Shown piece after piece: positions 1,469-13,897 of a stretch of DNA of 36,585 bases. The notes under the pieces are model-generated. The model did no database searches. It worked only from the letters and a program-made list of their open reading frames with translations, and had not been told where the DNA came from. A program made the position numbers and the translations under genes. Source of the stretch: Methylocystis sp. (GTDB taxonomy: Bacteria > Pseudomonadota > Alphaproteobacteria > Rhizobiales > Beijerinckiaceae); contig NZ_JAKFWS010000082.1 of NCBI RefSeq assembly GCF_021731785.1, forward strand, positions 1 to 36,585. The letters are read 5' to 3'. Each line of letters opens with the position of its first letter. The first letter of the stretch is position 1.

Positions 1469-2755
1469 TCACTGCGCCGCGAGTTTGATTTCGGGATAGC
1501 TGCACTTCTCGTCGCTCTTCGCCTCGACATGGAGATGCGACGGCGGTTCGACGAACGGAATGCCCAGCGTCTGCCAAACGTCGACGAGCGATTCGACGAG
1601 GCTCGCGATATGCGCATGCGTGTGGCGCGGCGTCGGCGTGACCCGAAGCCGCTCGCTTCCCTTCGCCACAGTCGGGTAGTTGATCGGCTGAATATAGATC
1701 GAGTGGCGTTCGAGCAGCAGGTCGCTCGCCGCCTTGCAGAGTTCGGCGTCGCGCACCATCACCGGCACGATATGCGAGCCATTTTCGAGCACGGGCAGGC
1801 CGGCGGCGGCAAGCGCGTGCTTGGTGATATGCGTGACGCGTTGATGCGCCGCCCGCAGGTCTGGCCGGCGCTTGAGCAGACGCACGGCGGCGCAAGCGGC
1901 GGCGGCGACGGCCGGCGGCAGCGCCGTGGTGAAAATGAACGAAGCGGCGTAGGACCGGATCGCGTCGATCACCGCCGCGTCGCCGGCGATATAGCCGCCC
2001 ATCGTGCCGAAGCCCTTGGCGAGCGTGCCCTCGATCACATTGACGCGGTCCATCACGCCTTCGCGTTCGCAGACGCCGCCGCCGCGCGCGCCATACATGC
2101 CGACCGCATGCACCTCGTCGACATAGGTCATCGCGCCATAGCGCTCGGCGAGCGCGACGATGTCGGCGACCGGCGCAATATTGCCGTTCATCGAATAGAG
2201 GCTTTCGAAGATCACAAGCTTGGGCCGATCGCCTGCGTCGATCAGCAATTCTTCGAGATGCGCCAGATCATTGTGGCGGAAGATTTTCTTTTCGGCCCGC
2301 GAGCGCTTCACGCCTTCGATCATCGAATTGTGATTGGAGGCGTCGGAGAGGATGACGCAATTGGGCAAGAGGTCGGCGATCGTCGAAATCGCCGCGAGGT
2401 TGGAAATCCAGCCGGAGGTGAAGACGAGCGCGCGTTCCTTGCCATGCAGGTCGGCGAGCTCGCGCTCAAGCTCGACGATGGCGTGGCTGGTGCCGGAGAT
2501 ATTGCGCGTGCCGCCTGCGCCCGCGCCGACCTTGTTCGCCGTCTCGACCATGGCGGCGATCACGTCGGGGTGCTGGCCCATGCCGAGATAGTCGTTCGAG
2601 CACCAGATGGTCACCGGCTCCACCGAGCCGTCGTCGCGATGCCAGTTCGCCAGCGGAAAAGCCTCGACGTCGCGCTCCAGATGCGCAAAGACGCGGTAAC
2701 GGCGCTCGTCCTTCAGACGGGAGACGGCGGCCTCGAAGTAACGCCGATAGACCAT
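1469..2755 (-). CDS. hemA: 5-aminolevulinate synthase
   Basis: Condenses glycine and succinyl-CoA to 5-aminolevulinate, the first step of tetrapyrrole (haem, and possibly corrinoid or chlorophyll) synthesis by the C4 route typical of alphaproteobacteria. The 428 residues match the family in length and start ([20 protein letters not shown]). Visible are the glycine-rich [14 protein letters not shown] segment (about 78-90), the cofactor-stacking region around SNHNS (about 140-144), the PLP aspartate in YVDEVHAVG (about D213), and the PLP lysine in EGTLAKGFG (about K247). A GGAG ribosome binding site lies just upstream of the ATG. It is transcribed alone, convergent with the DUF1643 gene and divergent from the adenosyltransferase gene. 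No FNR/FixK box was found in its upstream region. Confidence 0.97.
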
Positions 2756-3071
2756 GCTCCAACCCTTTGATTTTTATTTGCCCCGAAGTCCACGGCGCGG
2801 CCCCCGTCCTGCCTGCCGTCTAGTTTGGACGATTTCTTACATAGCCGATCCGCGTCCGGAAGGCGAGTGGCCGAATGACGCGCCCGCGGCTCTTTTCATG
2901 CGGAATTCCGGGCCAGTGCGAAATAAAATGATGGCGCCACCGCGGGCGAAGCCGCTATCCAAACTGCGTCTTGCCGATCCGCCCTCGCCGGAGCTTTTTT
3001 GAGCAAGGCGCTTTAGGCATGACCATCAGGCGCGCGTGGCGTAACGAGAGACCGGGGTGCGTAGGACGGCG
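2756..3071. other. Divergent intergenic region hemA / adenosyltransferase
   Basis: 316 bases between two divergent genes. It must hold the promoters of both. I see no clear -35/-10 pair, riboswitch core or FNR-type palindrome. The 82-codon frame open at 2754-3002 has no family resemblance and no ribosome binding site and is judged spurious. Confidence 0.5.
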
Positions 3072-3596
3072 ATGAAGCTCTATACGAAAAAAGGCGACCG
3101 GGGACAGACCAGTCTCTTCTCAGGCCGGCGCGCGGCGAAATTCGATCCGCGCGTGGCCGCCGTCGGCGATCTCGACGAATTGTCGGCGAGCCTCGGGCTC
3201 GCGCGCGTCGCCTTTCCGCAATCCGACGATCTTTTGTGCGGCGCGCAAAAGGCGCTCTATAAAATCAGCGCCATCGTCAGCGCCGAAGCGCGTCAGATCG
3301 ATATCCTATTGGACGACGCCGAAATCGCGGCGCTCGAAATCGAGATCGACCGCGCCAGCGACGCCCTGCCACCCTTACGCGATTTCATCTATCCGGGAGA
3401 GGCGGAGGCGAGCGCGCGTCTCCACATGGCCCGCGCCGTCGCCAGGCGCGCCGAGCGCAGCATCGCCGCGCTCGAAGCGCCGCCGGCGCCCGACAACGCT
3501 CTCGCCTATCTCAATCGCTTAAGCGATTTGTTGTTCGCTCTGGCGCGGCTCGCGGACCAGCAGAGCGGACATGGCGACCGGATGCTCGGCGGCTGA
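3072..3596 (+). CDS. pduO: Cob(I)alamin adenosyltransferase, PduO type
   Basis: Transfers the adenosyl group of ATP to cob(I)alamin to make adenosylcobalamin, the coenzyme of mutases such as methylmalonyl-CoA mutase. The 174 residues contain the N-terminal nucleotide-binding TKKGDRGQTSLFSGRR, the central DFIYPGEAEASARLHMARAVARR helix with its ATP-contacting arginines, and the C-terminal LNRLSDLLFALARLA helix, all hallmarks of the PduO/MMAB family. The start is the ATG at 3072 with AGGA six bases upstream; an in-frame GTG at 3057 would add only five residues foreign to the family. A broken second copy of its middle part lies at 6546-6662. No B12 riboswitch precedes this copy. Confidence 0.94.
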   Translation: MKLYTKKGDRGQTSLFSGRRAAKFDPRVAAVGDLDELSASLGLARVAFPQSDDLLCGAQKALYKISAIVSAEARQIDILLDDAEIAALEIEIDRASDALPPLRDFIYPGEAEASARLHMARAVARRAERSIAALEAPPAPDNALAYLNRLSDLLFALARLADQQSGHGDRMLGG

Positions 3597-8514: not shown

Positions 8515-8781
8515 CTAGCTCGGCCGCGAGGCGAAAGTCTTCGCGGCATTGCGACTCGCCGCCGCAGTTGCGCCCTTCAATATCAACAGTCCCGCAAAGG
8601 CGTCGAGGTTGATGAAAAAGATTCGTGAGAAGATCGGCGCCGTAAAATGGTCGACGCCAGGGCCAGTCGCTGCGGTGACCGCCTGAACGAGTCTCTCATA
8701 GTCAACAAGGGAAGCAAGCAAAGCCGCGAGCCCGCCGGCGAAACCATCAAAGCGCCGCGCCAGCAGGCCGGCGTTTTCACA
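8515..8781 (-). pseudogene. Truncated copy of the 173-residue membrane protein gene
   Basis: Reads CENAGLLARRF, AVTAATGPGVDHFTAP and INLDAFAGLLILK, against CESAGLLARRF, AVTAATGPGVDHFTAP and INLGAFAGLLILK in the intact gene at 12722-13243. It corresponds to the last half (residues about 88-173). The end, FASRPS against FASRPT, and the DNA around the stop are also alike. The N-terminal half with the first membrane segments is missing, replaced by unrelated sequence (frame open to 8859). The reading frame is still open, so a short protein could be made, but loss of half the fold argues for a remnant. It sits upstream of and divergent from the first receptor and its riboswitch. Confidence 0.8.
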
Positions 8782-8960
8782 AGCGCGCCTGGCGCGATTG
8801 GGCTTATGCAACCTCCCAATCTCGGTCAAACCGAGGACCTTGGTTGAGGCACCGCACATCGAGCGACCTGTGGCGCTTCTGCATCACTGCTTTTGAAAAA
8901 GGCGCAGGCGCAACGCCCGTCCGCCTAATCGGCTTGACTTGAAAATCGCATTTAACGCTT

Positions 8961-9172
8961 ACTGTTACCGACGGTTCCCGCAAGGGATCAATAGGGAATG
9001 CGGTGAGCGCATCGTCGCGCGATGCCGCTGCTGCCCCCGCAACTGTAAGCGGCGAGTCAAAGACCAAAACAGCCACTGGAGCCAATGTTCCGGGAAGGCG
9101 GCCTTTGAGCGACGACCCGCGAGCCAGGAGACCTGCCGTCATCGTGGTCACGCGCGAAGCATCGGGCGGTGG
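8961..9172 (+). promoter_or_regulatory. Cobalamin riboswitch (adenosylcobalamin/B12 element)
   Basis: Contains the conserved B12-box GAGCCAGGAGACCTGCCGTC at 9121-9140, the core GCTGCCCCCGCAACTGTAAG, GGGAATGCGGTGAG near its 5' side and GCCACTGG in the middle, in the order expected for a cobalamin riboswitch. The core matches the second copy at 16081-16294 nearly base for base. It ends about 93 bases ahead of the receptor start. When the cofactor is bound, such elements usually reduce expression of the downstream gene; I could not identify the terminator or anti-RBS partner. Confidence 0.95.
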
Positions 9173-9265
9173 GCGCCGATGTGGGTGAAGCCTATTTTGG
9201 CGCCTTGCGCGCTTAAATGGGCGTGGCCAGTCGCAGTGACGGTCCGGTCTGCTGCGAGCCTTGCC

Positions 9266-11698
9266 ATGCATGTTTCTTCAGCCGCGGTCCGCCTTGCTTC
9301 GATCCTCGCGGCACTCGCTCCGCTAACGGCGCTCGCTCAAACCGCGCTCCCCACCATACAAGTCGGCGCGCATCGGGCGGCCCCGGCAACGCGTTCCCAT
9401 GCGCCCGCGCCGGGACGATCCGTTCATGCGCCGCCGCAACCGCCGCGCGCTTCGCCAATTGTCGCGGCTATCGCCCGCCCCGCGCCGCCCGCGGGCCCGA
9501 CGCCGCCGCCGATCACCGCCTCAAGCGAGAAATTCTTCACTGGCCAGGAGGTCAACGCGCTTCCCTTCGCGCGGCCCGGCGACGCGCTGGAAATCGTGCC
9601 CGGACTCGTCGTCACCCAGCACAGCGGCGAAGGCAAGGCGAACCAATATTTCCTGCGCGGCTTCAATCTCGACCATGGCACCGATCTCGCGCTCTATCTC
9701 GACGGCATGCCGCTCAATATGCGCACCCATGGCCATGCCCAGGGCTACGCGGACAGCAATTTCCTGATCCCCGAGCTGTTGTCTTACGTGCTCGCCCGCA
9801 AAGGGCCGTATGACGCGCAAGACGGCGACTTCTCGTCGGCGGGCTCGATCTACATGCAATACAACGACAGGATCGACAAAGGCTACTTCCAGCTCACTGG
9901 CGGCAGTTTCGCCTATGCGCGAGCGCTCGCTGTCGCGCCTTACCAGGATTTCGCCGGGGGCTCCACCTATGGCGCGGTCGAAGCGCAATACTACAACGGA
10001 CCCTGGGAGCGCGGCGACAATATGCGGCGTCTCAACAGCGTGTTGCGCTGGTCGCGCGGCACGCAAGAGGACGGCGCCTCCGTGACCTTCATGGGCTACG
10101 CCAACAAATGGTATGGAACGGACCAAATTCCGAGTCGCGCGGTCAGCGCCGGGTTGCTGTCGCGCTGGGGCACGATGGACCCAACCGCCGGCGGCGCGAC
10201 TTCGCGCTTCTCGCTCTCGTCGCGCTGGAGTCAGATTGAGGGTAATCACGCCACGCGCGTCGAAGCCTATGTCGTCCATTCGACCTTGGACCTCTACAGC
10301 ACTTACACCTATTTCCTGGGGCATCAGGATTTGGGCGACCAAATCCGTCAGTTCGACTATCGCACGGTCGTCGGCCTTAACGCGCAGCATGCGATCAGAT
10401 GGGCCGATGTGAATGGCGCGCCAATCGAGACCCGCGTCGGCTTTCAGGGACGCTACGACGACATCCGACTTGGCTTGCAGGAGAGCGTCCGTCGACAACT
10501 CTATGACACGCTCAGCAACAATGCCGTCGGCGAAGGCAGCATCGGCCTCTGGACCGATACGGCGGTGCGCTGGACGCCCTGGCTGAAGACCGTCACCGGG
10601 GCGCGCTTCGACTATTACAACGCCGCCGTAAGCTCGCTTCAAACGCTGGTTGACGCGCCGAAACTCGCGGCGAGCACTGGCCTCTCGGCGTTCCTTCTCA
10701 CGGGACCATTCAACCAGGGCGTAAAGAATGCGGCGCTGTTCAGCCCGAAGCTCTCGATCATCGTCGGCCCTTTCTACAAGACGGAATTTTACGCCAATTA
10801 CGGCGAAGGCTTCCACTCGACCGACGCAAGGGGCGCGGTGCTGCAATTCTCCACAGCCGAACTTGCGGACAATGACGGCTTCGTTCAGGCGGCTTCAATT
10901 CCGCTGCTGGTGAAATCACGCGGTGCCGAGATCGGCGCCCGCGCCAAATTCATCGAGGGGCTCGATTCCAGCATCAGCCTCTTCTGGCTCAATCTCGAAT
11001 CGGAGAACCAGTTTGTCGGCGACAGCGGCACGACCATCTTCGGTCGCCCGAGTCGCAGATATGGCATTGAACTCGTCAACAAATACGCCCCGAACGCCTG
11101 GATCAGATTTGACGGCGACGTGGCGCTTGTTCAGGCGCGCTACCGCGGCGTCGACGTTGCGCAGACTTTGGCGTGGCTCGATTTGATGGCGCCTGACGCA
11201 TTGCCTTATGGGACATTCTTGGGCAATGCGCCCGGCAACTATCTGTCGAACGCCATCGCGGTGACGGCGATGGGCGGATTGGAGATGGGCGAGACGACCG
11301 GATGGTTCGGCGCGCTGAAGTATCGCTATTTCGGGGCCAGGGCGCTCACCGAGGACGGCTATTTCAATTCCCCGGCGACCGGCACGTTGAACGCGCGAGT
11401 GGGCTATCGATGGGCGGATGGCTGGCGACTGCAGTTCGACGCCTTCAATGTTTTCAACTCTCGCTCCGACCAGATCACATTTGCCTATGGCTCACTCCTG
11501 CCGAGCGATCCCCTTTACGCGCAATGCGTCGCAGGCGTTGCTCCCGCCCAGGTTTGTGGCGTCGGCGTCATGGATCGGCATTTCAAGCCGCTCGAGCCTG
11601 CAGCCGTGCGCGTGACATTGGCTGGGCCACTGAACTTTGAACAGCCGATCGCCAGACTTCCTGATTTTGCGGAGCCTTTCTCGCGACCATCGAACTGA
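9266..11698 (+). CDS. TonB-dependent outer membrane receptor under B12 riboswitch control
   Basis: 810 residues. The start at 9266 gives a signal peptide (MHVSSAAVRLASILAALAPL, cleavage near ALA|Q24). The frame remains open back to 8939, but that stretch is the riboswitch. A 93-base leader equals that of the btuB-like gene, supporting this start. After the mature N-terminus LPTIQVGA comes a proline/alanine-rich linker (about 37-83). The plug then carries FFTGQEVNALPFARPGDALEIVPG and NQYFLRGFNLDHGTDLALYL, and a beta barrel follows to FNVFNSRSDQ and VRVTLAGPLNF. A tail of some 19 residues follows the last strand. The plug differs from BtuB and belongs to a broad receptor group of unclear substrate. 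Riboswitch control suggests corrinoids, cobalt or a B12-sparing substrate (inference). Confidence 0.9.
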   Translation: MHVSSAAVRLASILAALAPLTALAQTALPTIQVGAHRAAPATRSHAPAPGRSVHAPPQPPRASPIVAAIARPAPPAGPTPPPITASSEKFFTGQEVNALPFARPGDALEIVPGLVVTQHSGEGKANQYFLRGFNLDHGTDLALYLDGMPLNMRTHGHAQGYADSNFLIPELLSYVLARKGPYDAQDGDFSSAGSIYMQYNDRIDKGYFQLTGGSFAYARALAVAPYQDFAGGSTYGAVEAQYYNGPWERGDNMRRLNSVLRWSRGTQEDGASVTFMGYANKWYGTDQIPSRAVSAGLLSRWGTMDPTAGGATSRFSLSSRWSQIEGNHATRVEAYVVHSTLDLYSTYTYFLGHQDLGDQIRQFDYRTVVGLNAQHAIRWADVNGAPIETRVGFQGRYDDIRLGLQESVRRQLYDTLSNNAVGEGSIGLWTDTAVRWTPWLKTVTGARFDYYNAAVSSLQTLVDAPKLAASTGLSAFLLTGPFNQGVKNAALFSPKLSIIVGPFYKTEFYANYGEGFHSTDARGAVLQFSTAELADNDGFVQAASIPLLVKSRGAEIGARAKFIEGLDSSISLFWLNLESENQFVGDSGTTIFGRPSRRYGIELVNKYAPNAWIRFDGDVALVQARYRGVDVAQTLAWLDLMAPDALPYGTFLGNAPGNYLSNAIAVTAMGGLEMGETTGWFGALKYRYFGARALTEDGYFNSPATGTLNARVGYRWADGWRLQFDAFNVFNSRSDQITFAYGSLLPSDPLYAQCVAGVAPAQVCGVGVMDRHFKPLEPAAVRVTLAGPLNFEQPIARLPDFAEPFSRPSN

Positions 11699-12721: not shown

Positions 12722-13243
12722 CTAGGTCGGTCGCGAGGCGAAAGTCTCAGACAGATCGCGATTCGCTACTGCGGCTTTCAGAATCAACAATCCCGCAAAG
12801 GCGCCGAGGTTGATGAAAAAGATTTGTGCGACGACCGGCGCGGTGAAATGGTCGACGCCGGGCCCCGTCGCGGCGGTGACGGCCAGAATCAGGCTCTCAT
12901 AAGCGACAAAGGAAGCAAGGAAAGCAGCGAGCCCGCCCCTGAGGCCGGGAAAGCGGCGGGCGAGCAGGCCGGCGCTTTCACAGGACAGCAGAGCGACGAC
13001 GCCGAGCGCGCCGCCCCAAAACAGCGTTGTGGGATCGGTCGGATAATGCAGGAAGAGAAAGCCCATCGCCTGATTCGTGAGCCACACTGCGCCCGTCAGC
13101 AGCAGCGCCGCGACAGCGGCGAAGCCGGCGAGCGGCAAGGCGCAAGCCCAGGCGAAGCTGAACAGAACGCTGGCGGCGATGAATGTCGCCGCCCAAAGCG
13201 CGCGGCGGTTGATCTTCGAAACGGTGGAAAGTGTCAGCGACAT
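12722..13243 (-). CDS. Uncharacterised membrane protein in the btuB operon
   Basis: 173 residues with about five hydrophobic segments (roughly 16-37, 38-56, 74-92, 103-125 and 138-158). Conserved-looking polar features are GFLFLHYPTDPTT between the second and third segments and TGPGVDHFTAP before the last; the latter is unchanged in the truncated copy at 8515-8781, which points to functional importance. A GGAG site lies eight bases ahead of the ATG. It is the third gene after the riboswitch-controlled btuB-like gene, 54 bases from the second. I do not recognise the family. Possible roles are an inner membrane partner of B12 or cobalt uptake (inference from context only). Transcription probably ends at the hairpin at 12565-12601. 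Confidence 0.8.
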   Translation of the reverse strand: MSLTLSTVSKINRRALWAATFIAASVLFSFAWACALPLAGFAAVAALLLTGAVWLTNQAMGFLFLHYPTDPTTLFWGGALGVVALLSCESAGLLARRFPGLRGGLAAFLASFVAYESLILAVTAATGPGVDHFTAPVVAQIFFINLGAFAGLLILKAAVANRDLSETFASRPT

Positions 13244-13297
13244 GAGGTTTCTCCTTTCAAGCGAAGGCGGGGGAATTGAAATCGAAAGCGCGGCGTG

Positions 13298-13897
13298 TCA
13301 GCCGCTGCACGATGGAGTCGCGGCCCGATCGGCGGGATCGGGCTCGTGCAGGCCGAACCAGCGCGCGCGCAATTTGTCCCAGAGCGCCAGGCGCGACCAA
13401 TCCGGCTCCTTCAGAACTTTGTCGGTCGCCGCATCGAGGAACGGGTTGGGCAGCAGCACGGTGATCTGCTGCTCGCCGGCGCCGTTGAACAATTGCAGTC
13501 CCCACGACATTGGCACGCAGCTCGTGTTCCGTCGGCGATAGAGCTCGGCGCGCGACGTGCGCCTCAGCTTTGCAAGCTCGGGCGACGTCGGCCGAGCGCG
13601 TGATCCTTTGTTCTCGCCGATGCAGACGTGAAAATGCGTGACGCCGAAAGCGACGGTGAGATAGCCGTCGAGCAGCCTGATCCGCGTCGGCGCGCGGTCG
13701 GCGTGAATTTCCCACGCCGCGCCTTGAATGATCGGTCCGAAGACGATCTCGCGCCAGTGATTTTTGAAAAGGTCGCGAATGAGTTCTTCGAGACTCGCCG
13801 CGTCCGTCGGCAGAGAAAAGACATCGAGCATTGCGCCGTCAGGCTCGACGATACGTCGTGGCGCTATGCTTGGCGTTCTGACTGAAGTCATTTGCAT
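13298..13897 (-). CDS. Uncharacterised soluble protein in the btuB operon
   Basis: 199 residues, no signal peptide or membrane segment. A distinctive block runs FGPIIQGAAWEIH, then IRLLDGYLTVAFGVTHFHVC, then ELYRRRNTSCVPMSWGLQLF. His, Cys and Trp are frequent in the middle, which could serve metal or corrinoid binding, but this is speculation. The gene starts 13 bases after the btuB-like stop, with the strong site GAGGAG ahead of the ATG, so it is surely co-transcribed and under the same riboswitch. An ATG two codons further in is an alternative start. I do not recognise the family; the tight linkage to a B12 receptor is the best clue to function. Confidence 0.82.
   Translation of the reverse strand: MQMTSVRTPSIAPRRIVEPDGAMLDVFSLPTDAASLEELIRDLFKNHWREIVFGPIIQGAAWEIHADRAPTRIRLLDGYLTVAFGVTHFHVCIGENKGSRARPTSPELAKLRRTSRAELYRRRNTSCVPMSWGLQLFNGAGEQQITVLLPNPFLDAATDKVLKEPDWSRLALWDKLRARWFGLHEPDPADRAATPSCSG

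Follow-up and report, generated by a model that had tools for sequence, protein, structure and literature searches.

What do two uncharacterised genes do behind a btuB-like gene and a cobalamin riboswitch, in a genome that has no permease of the BtuC type? The question was raised by a 36,585-nucleotide stretch of DNA (the whole of which is called the window here) from a 4.2-Mb Methylocystis sp. genome, in which an initial annotation had proposed the two genes as factors for the uptake or handling of vitamin B12. BtuFCD homologues have been reported in more than 90% of B12-uptaking organisms, in a survey whose account leaves the remainder open (PMC2667541), and many B12-auxotrophic Gram-negative bacteria are described as having BtuB and not BtuCDF (PMC6072759).

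Both reading frames, of 199 and 173 residues, were present as first annotated, following the btuB-like gene on the same strand as a riboswitch upstream of it (Table 1). The order is riboswitch, btuB-like gene, DUF7676 gene and membrane gene, the last of which we named MEM, with 13 nt between the btuB-like and DUF7676 genes and 54 nt between DUF7676 and MEM. The best NCBIfam model for the receptor was TIGR01779 (TonB-B12), at 255 bits under a cut-off of 599.7. A terminator scan returned a single weak minus-strand site within the unit, at the DUF7676 stop (13305-13290), and two sites in the region against 4.6 expected; it is plausible that the riboswitch and the three genes lie on one transcript. 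The absence of BtuFCD held for the whole genome, in that a genome-wide search gave no FecCD permease match, i.e., no BtuC-type permease, and no CbiQ/EcfT match. The genome does carry CbiC, which makes corrin synthesis probable and B12 import perhaps dispensable.

Table 1. Features of the window that bear on the locus.
Feature	Position	Strand	Evidence and remarks
Cobalamin riboswitch	16303-16101	-	Rfam RF00174, 123.9 bits vs gathering 31.5; heads the unit
BtuB-like TonB-dependent receptor, 692 aa	13911..15989	-	Pfam Plug and TonB_dep_Rec_b-barrel
DUF7676 gene, 199 aa, soluble	13298..13897	-	Pfam PF24724
Membrane gene (MEM), 173 aa	12722..13243	-	ORF list; model and alignment of orthologues
Second TonB-dependent receptor	9266..11698	+	Under the second riboswitch; divergent
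Second cobalamin riboswitch	8957..9154	+	Rfam RF00174, 124.6 bits; ahead of another TonB receptor
MEM 3' remnant copy, open, 114-aa ORF	8515..8859	-	72% identity to MEM residues 86-173
Cobalamin adenosyltransferase gene	3057-3596	+	PF01923; about 9 kb from the unit

The start of the second receptor was set by eye at a signal-peptide-like ATG within ORF 8939-11698; its relatives lie on the opposite strand beyond MEM in L134, L137, L139, L140 and L141 of the named scan described below. Rfam detected no riboswitch adjoining the adenosyltransferase gene. The remnant copy matches the 3' part of the MEM gene over 213 nt with 82% identity and, on its sequence, is a recent duplicate of MEM. Comparable additional partial copies of MEM were seen in two same-genus genomes (G023, G004). 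The string TGPGVDHFTAP, which had been put forward because it is unchanged in a second copy, does occur in the 114-residue frame. We rejected it as evidence of constraint, since the duplication is recent and the string sits in a loop that varies across the MEM family, which leaves the motif argument without weight.

We then considered how the two families are distributed. A strong MEM match was present in 24 of 37 same-genus genomes (G000-G036; a weak match in G027 was counted as absent). DUF7676 was found in 23 of these 24 and in none of the other 13 (Fisher p 4e-9, a value that ignores relatedness, in a sample with several incomplete genomes and with the broken DUF7676 copies of G007 and G029 counted as present). 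MEM persists in G007 and G029 where DUF7676 is interrupted, and G024 has MEM without DUF7676. All 18 same-genus MEM loci tested with Rfam carried a cobalamin riboswitch, and 17 of them DUF7676. FecCD matches were seen in 7 of the 39 genomes of the genus; of the 24 with MEM, 4 had one.

In a sample of 385 genomes of the class, DUF7676 was present in 16, MEM in 17 and both in 7 (hypergeometric p 8e-7, relatedness ignored). Outside the window, 12 of 16 alphaproteobacterial DUF7676 loci of this sample had an Rfam cobalamin riboswitch, one of the 12 being cut by a contig end. These 16 loci continued with a BtuC-like gene in eight, only a BtuF-like gene in three, MEM in one (L052) and none of these in four (L040, L041, L045, L053), as judged from BLAST labels of the neighbours, with Pfam on representatives. 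Among these four, DUF7676 has as a neighbour a glutamine synthetase in L040, a GntR-type regulator in L045 and in L053 an Fe-S protein that weakly matches reductive dehalogenases (20.4 bits vs a cut-off of 24.3). A same-strand cobalamin riboswitch lay upstream of MEM in 13 of the 17 MEM genomes, and was absent in L212, L215, L217 and L219. The cobalamin riboswitch of L072 is closely preceded by a fluoride riboswitch (2705-2767, minus strand) that reads in the other direction.

A further scan took the best 80 of 304 DUF7676 relatives as named loci. Alphaproteobacteria, Verrucomicrobiota, SAR324, Chloroflexota, Planctomycetes and Actinomycetota are among their sources; many of the records are metagenome assemblies, in which contigs may be misbinned. 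At least one of four markers (cobalamin riboswitch, BtuB-like gene, BtuC or MEM) was found in 60 of the 80, the BtuB label denoting similarity to TonB receptors and being by itself unspecific. A frequent layout was riboswitch-btuB-DUF7676-btuFCD, and representative loci were confirmed with Pfam to hold BtuF-, BtuC- and BtuD-type genes. In four of the 20 loci without the four markers, corrin or B12-transport genes were recognised. A riboswitch was found in 43 of the 62 named loci with at least 2.6 kb upstream. Outside Proteobacteria riboswitches were detected less often (4 of 16 loci scanned with Rfam), many of these loci being ended by contig ends. The calls were made with an nhmmer profile, supplemented by four further Rfam sites; the profile recovered all 40 sites from which it was built and two partial Rfam sites, and replaced a regular expression that had found 2 of 35 sites in a first version and 35 of 43 in a second. 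The control set, 60 FecCD and heme-carrier loci with a total of 211,517 bases, consisted of shorter pieces than the DUF7676 loci (about 3.5 kb each); its single riboswitch was that of L245, a locus overlapping the B12 locus L051.

Genome context gives good support to a role of both families in B12 uptake or handling, and neither of the two contrary outcomes named in the initial annotation was found. Homologues lay mostly in B12 loci, as the counts above indicate for DUF7676 (60 of the best 80) and MEM (13 of 17 genomes), and no characterised unrelated family emerged: DUF7676 has no assigned function in Pfam, and the window MEM had no credible match in Pfam or NCBIfam. A search of 33 MEM members against the same libraries gave a best E of 0.017 and, in one member, 0.0011, none of them credible, and two MEM profiles gave no credible match to PDB sequences at E<=10. 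A literature search gave no paper under the name DUF7676, and reports on B12 transporters, BtuN, BtuM and ChuX/HutX, covered mostly at the level of title and abstract, yielded no description of either family.

Compared with each of the other 51 aligned members, the window copy of MEM is eight residues shorter (24 nt, in frame) in the cytoplasmic loop joining helices 2 and 3. This could be a real deletion or an effect of assembly, and the window protein may be impaired by it. We therefore modelled a full-length 184-residue orthologue (L131, Methylocystis sp. L43). The model (pLDDT 88.1, pTM 0.82) has six helices, at residues 10-35, 38-48 (short), 51-71, 79-105, 108-134 and 143-178, so the "about five" membrane segments first proposed were close to the mark, the second helix being the short one. 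In a Foldseek search of the PDB, S-component entries (RibU and ECF-PanT chains, TM 0.40-0.58) stood at ranks 1, 4, 5, 6 and 7 with non-significant E values of 0.29 to 1.9; TmRibU had a prob of 0.96 and RibU 3p5n TM scores of 0.54/0.58, likewise with E not significant, and the ECF-PanT chain 6zg3_C is presumably the S-component of its complex. BtuM was not named among the 50 rows listed, all of which had E values of 0.29 or worse.

Three residues, C34, Q66 and W84 (numbered as in the 184-residue orthologue), were invariant in all 52 aligned MEM members and N153 was present in 50 of them, rows below 160 residues (two short partial rows) having been dropped beforehand. Mean K+R per loop was 0.0, 0.1 and 0.1 for the loops taken as periplasmic vs 1.8 and 2.1 for those taken as cytoplasmic. 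These positive-inside charges agree with a predicted topology in which both termini are cytoplasmic, and this topology would place C34, Q66, W84 and N153 at the periplasmic ends of helices.

The 199-residue protein is a full-length DUF7676 member (PF24724, 235.2 bits vs a cut-off of 27, positions 4-166 of 166), with no signal- or membrane-like stretch in the window copy (maximum 19-residue mean hydropathy 1.3, at residue 75). Its AlphaFold2 model (pLDDT 92.2, pTM 0.87) was compared with the PDB by Foldseek. The first 23 rows were HutX, ChuX, HemS, ChuS, PhuS, a putative heme-binding protein and two unnamed entries (E 5.8e-4 to 0.067, prob 0.85-1.00, four rows at <=0.001); the first four had a prob of 1.00, E values of 5.8e-4 to 9.7e-4 and TM scores of 0.42-0.55, and the row after the 23 fell to a prob of 0.06. 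The predicted fold of DUF7676 is thus that of the ChuX_HutX/HemS cytosolic heme carriers, as judged from the model. At the level of sequence there was no Pfam match to ChuX_HutX at E<=1, an hhalign comparison of 64 DUF7676 with 28 heme-carrier sequences gave a non-significant probability of 2%, and the family had no credible match among PDB sequences. Residues H88, H90 and C92 were invariant in all 64 sequences of the main alignment and were retained in all eight plasmid-borne sequences.

DUF7676 is also linked to [2Fe-2S] proteins and adenosyltransferases. In five Chloroflexota DUF7676 loci (L174, L177, L178, L185, L192) a sequence cluster of thioredoxin-like [2Fe-2S] proteins with a four-cysteine pattern was found, Pfam-positive in L177 and without a Pfam match at E<=0.001 in L185. 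The L192 member, directly after DUF7676, is a [2Fe-2S]-BtuR fusion, with BtuR at residues 175-347 (PF02572, 192.8 bits) and a ferredoxin part that is unlisted by Pfam but identifiable from its similarity to L177 (56% identity over 112 residues). DUF7676 occurred in 14 of 72,556 plasmid records; seven of the eight plasmid regions examined had a cobalamin riboswitch and the same seven an ABC permease, and a Streptomyces region had neither. In the three cyanobacteria tested (Nostoc, Trichormus, Acaryochloris) a thioredoxin-like [2Fe-2S] domain is joined to the C-terminal end of DUF7676; it is matched by PF01257 at E 1.3e-4 to 5.2e-4, under the curated cut-off, and keeps four cysteines in C-x4-C and C-x3-C spacing. 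On a Rhodococcus plasmid DUF7676 overlaps a gene for a protein with an FhuF 2Fe-2S C-terminal domain, and a FhuF 2Fe-2S-type gene holds the matching position on the Streptomyces plasmid.

The reading that we consider probable takes the unit as an operon for B12 salvage, repressed by cobalamin, in which MEM is a solitary S-component-like importer and DUF7676 a ChuX/HutX-like corrinoid acceptor; what this entails for corrinoid binding, transport, electron transfer and chemistry is what we infer. BtuB with TonB would carry cobalamin across the outer membrane, and MEM would take the inner-membrane step in place of BtuFCD, with C34, Q66, W84 and N153 forming a corrinoid pocket and C34 as a candidate cobalt ligand, as in BtuM. 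DUF7676 would act as a cytoplasmic acceptor that takes the corrinoid from MEM or BtuCD, holds it near the strand of invariant H88-x-H90-x-C92 and presents it to a [2Fe-2S] donor for one-electron reduction and removal of the upper ligand, with adenosylation by BtuR/PduO to follow. Prediction thus assigns one protein each to the inner membrane and the cytoplasm, in agreement with the step that had been suggested for the pair.

A more far-reaching version, which we hold to be possible at best, is that DUF7676 is a missing bacterial cytosolic B12 processor, functionally the counterpart of human CblC but built on a heme-carrier fold, and that MEM represents a second, independent lineage of solitary S-components for B12 import, using an invariant cysteine of its own. 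Having received the corrinoid at the inner membrane, DUF7676 would strip off the upper ligand reductively together with a [2Fe-2S] protein, fused or separate, and pass the Co(II)/Co(I) corrinoid to BtuR/PduO.

The salvage operon with MEM as importer has to be weighed against the less likely case that MEM serves B12 uptake as an accessory membrane factor (in receptor coupling, retention or partnership with an ABC transporter) and not as the permease. Among the 37 named loci with BtuB, DUF7676 and 2.5 kb of downstream sequence, MEM alone followed in 24, BtuC alone in 11, both in one (L147) and neither in one (L210). The riboswitch was followed by MEM alone in L214, L216 and L225, and eight loci without DUF7676 had the order riboswitch-receptor-MEM. 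MEM does not strictly replace the ABC importer, as it occurs alongside BtuFCD in L147 and BtuCD in L226, a co-occurrence that would suit an accessory role. So would the genes of about 265 codons, all of one cluster, that lie directly 3' of MEM in L214, L216 and L221. Pfam identified Peripla_BP_2 in L214 and in a relative in L206, beginning at residue 7 or 8; this leaves no space for a signal peptide and the proteins may be cytosolic corrinoid binders. DUF1636 genes, of another uncharacterised family, were seen in the same kind of B12 uptake locus (L051, L285, L290), and the Anabaena gene at the DUF1636 position, alr4027, is described as a putative metal-binding protein (PMC10878165).

Against an accessory role stand the genomes that appear to need an importer. 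Ten of the 17 class-sample MEM genomes had no CbiC match (absence meaning that the genome was missing from the list of matching genomes), nine of these ten being at least 93% complete, and all ten carry B12-binding domains. Full FecCD matches were found in two (G099, G433). The other eight had no FecCD match above 30 bits: G184 (29.1 bits) and G443 (27.3 bits) had partial matches just over the 26.5-bit cut-off, G120, G174 and G284 fell below it, and G277, G299 and G071 had no match. None of the ten had CbiQ/EcfT. The comparison with genomes lacking a BtuC-type permease thus comprised eight MEM genomes without CbiC, full BtuC-type permease or EcfT, which leaves them without an alternative inner-membrane passage of the two kinds covered, FecCD and CbiQ/EcfT.

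A role of DUF7676 as a regulator, or as a heme-related passenger in B12 operons, we regard as improbable. Its modelled fold is that of heme-binding proteins and some copies have no recognised B12 gene nearby, but Pfam gave no DNA-binding family match, the operon position and riboswitch recur across phyla, and its neighbours include corrinoid genes. Besides BtuR these are CbiZ (Pfam on L180 and L206, the L180 sequence cluster covering seven loci), CobD/CbiB in L172 and a CbiA/CobB-type protein in L203; a propionyl-CoA-carboxylase-type subunit (L175) and TonB (L180) were also found. Slightly less probable still is that MEM imports cobalt ions to feed corrin synthesis, with DUF7676 as a handler of metal or precursor. 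In its favour, B12 riboswitches also control cobalt transporters, CbiC is present in the window genome and H88, H90 and C92 could hold a metal. The lack of a CbiC match in 10 of 17 MEM genomes led us to reject cobalt import as the main reading; among the 52 MEM members no His, Asp or Glu position reaches 85% conservation, and MEM adjoins TonB receptors and substitutes for BtuFCD. Of the "corrinoid or cobalt use" first suggested, the corrinoid part is supported and the cobalt part fits less well.

MEM is a concrete candidate for the inner-membrane B12 route in methanotrophs and in CbiC-lacking genomes. To our knowledge, the reception, reduction and upper-ligand stripping of imported cobalamin in the bacterial cytoplasm are poorly defined, and with DUF7676, which is linked to ferredoxins and adenosyltransferases in several phyla, a cytoplasmic cobalamin-processing step becomes testable on one purified protein.

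The closest known parallel to MEM is BtuM of Thiobacillus denitrificans, described as a solitary B12 transporter of S-component fold, with six helices, a btuB-adjoining gene, frequent occurrence in genomes without BtuCDF and EcfT, pocket residues H28, D67, Y85 and R153, and a cysteine, C80 (PMC6072759). MEM is likewise small, with six helices in the model, both ends predicted to be cytosolic, an invariant cysteine and a btuB-adjoining gene, often in genomes without BtuCDF and EcfT. It differs in that its invariant cysteine is residue 34, at the end of helix 1, whereas that of BtuM is residue 80, and no credible sequence similarity of MEM to any PDB chain was found. The spacing of the conserved MEM residues resembles that of the BtuM pocket residues and C80, a likeness that is suggestive only. 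To ECF S-components the MEM model shows the structural similarity noted above, with E values that are not significant, and no CbiQ/EcfT partner was matched in the window genome. The name BtuN has been used for a gene of B12 uptake in Methylobacterium sp. 2A and also in Rhodocyclus, where it forms one cluster with BtuB (PMC7038796, PMC8954225).

In heme operons of the type hmuR-hmuS-hmuTUV, the carrier gene lies between the genes for the TonB receptor and the ABC importer, and DUF7676 can hold the same operon place. ChuX, ChuS and HutX are described as cytosolic heme-binding proteins of heme uptake operons (PMC10404700). DUF7676 differs from these carriers in sitting in B12 and not heme operons and in having no sequence-family match to them. 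A B12 operon similar to the DUF7676 loci is found in Anabaena sp. PCC 7120, where alr4027-btuB2-alr4030-btuF-btuC-btuD is reported to lie behind a cobalamin riboswitch, to be induced by cobalt starvation and to serve cyanocobalamin uptake. Loss of btuB2 lowered this uptake about 50-fold and loss of btuD 4-fold, whereas a btuF mutant took up cyanocobalamin as before (PMC10878165). The window DUF7676 lacks the ferredoxin domain of its counterpart on T. variabilis plasmid A, where the Anabaena gene order recurs with DUF7676-[2Fe-2S] in the place of alr4030. As alr4030 lies between btuB2 and btuF and is described as similar to ferredoxins (PMC10878165), gene order and description together suggest that it is the orthologue of the T. 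variabilis fusion.
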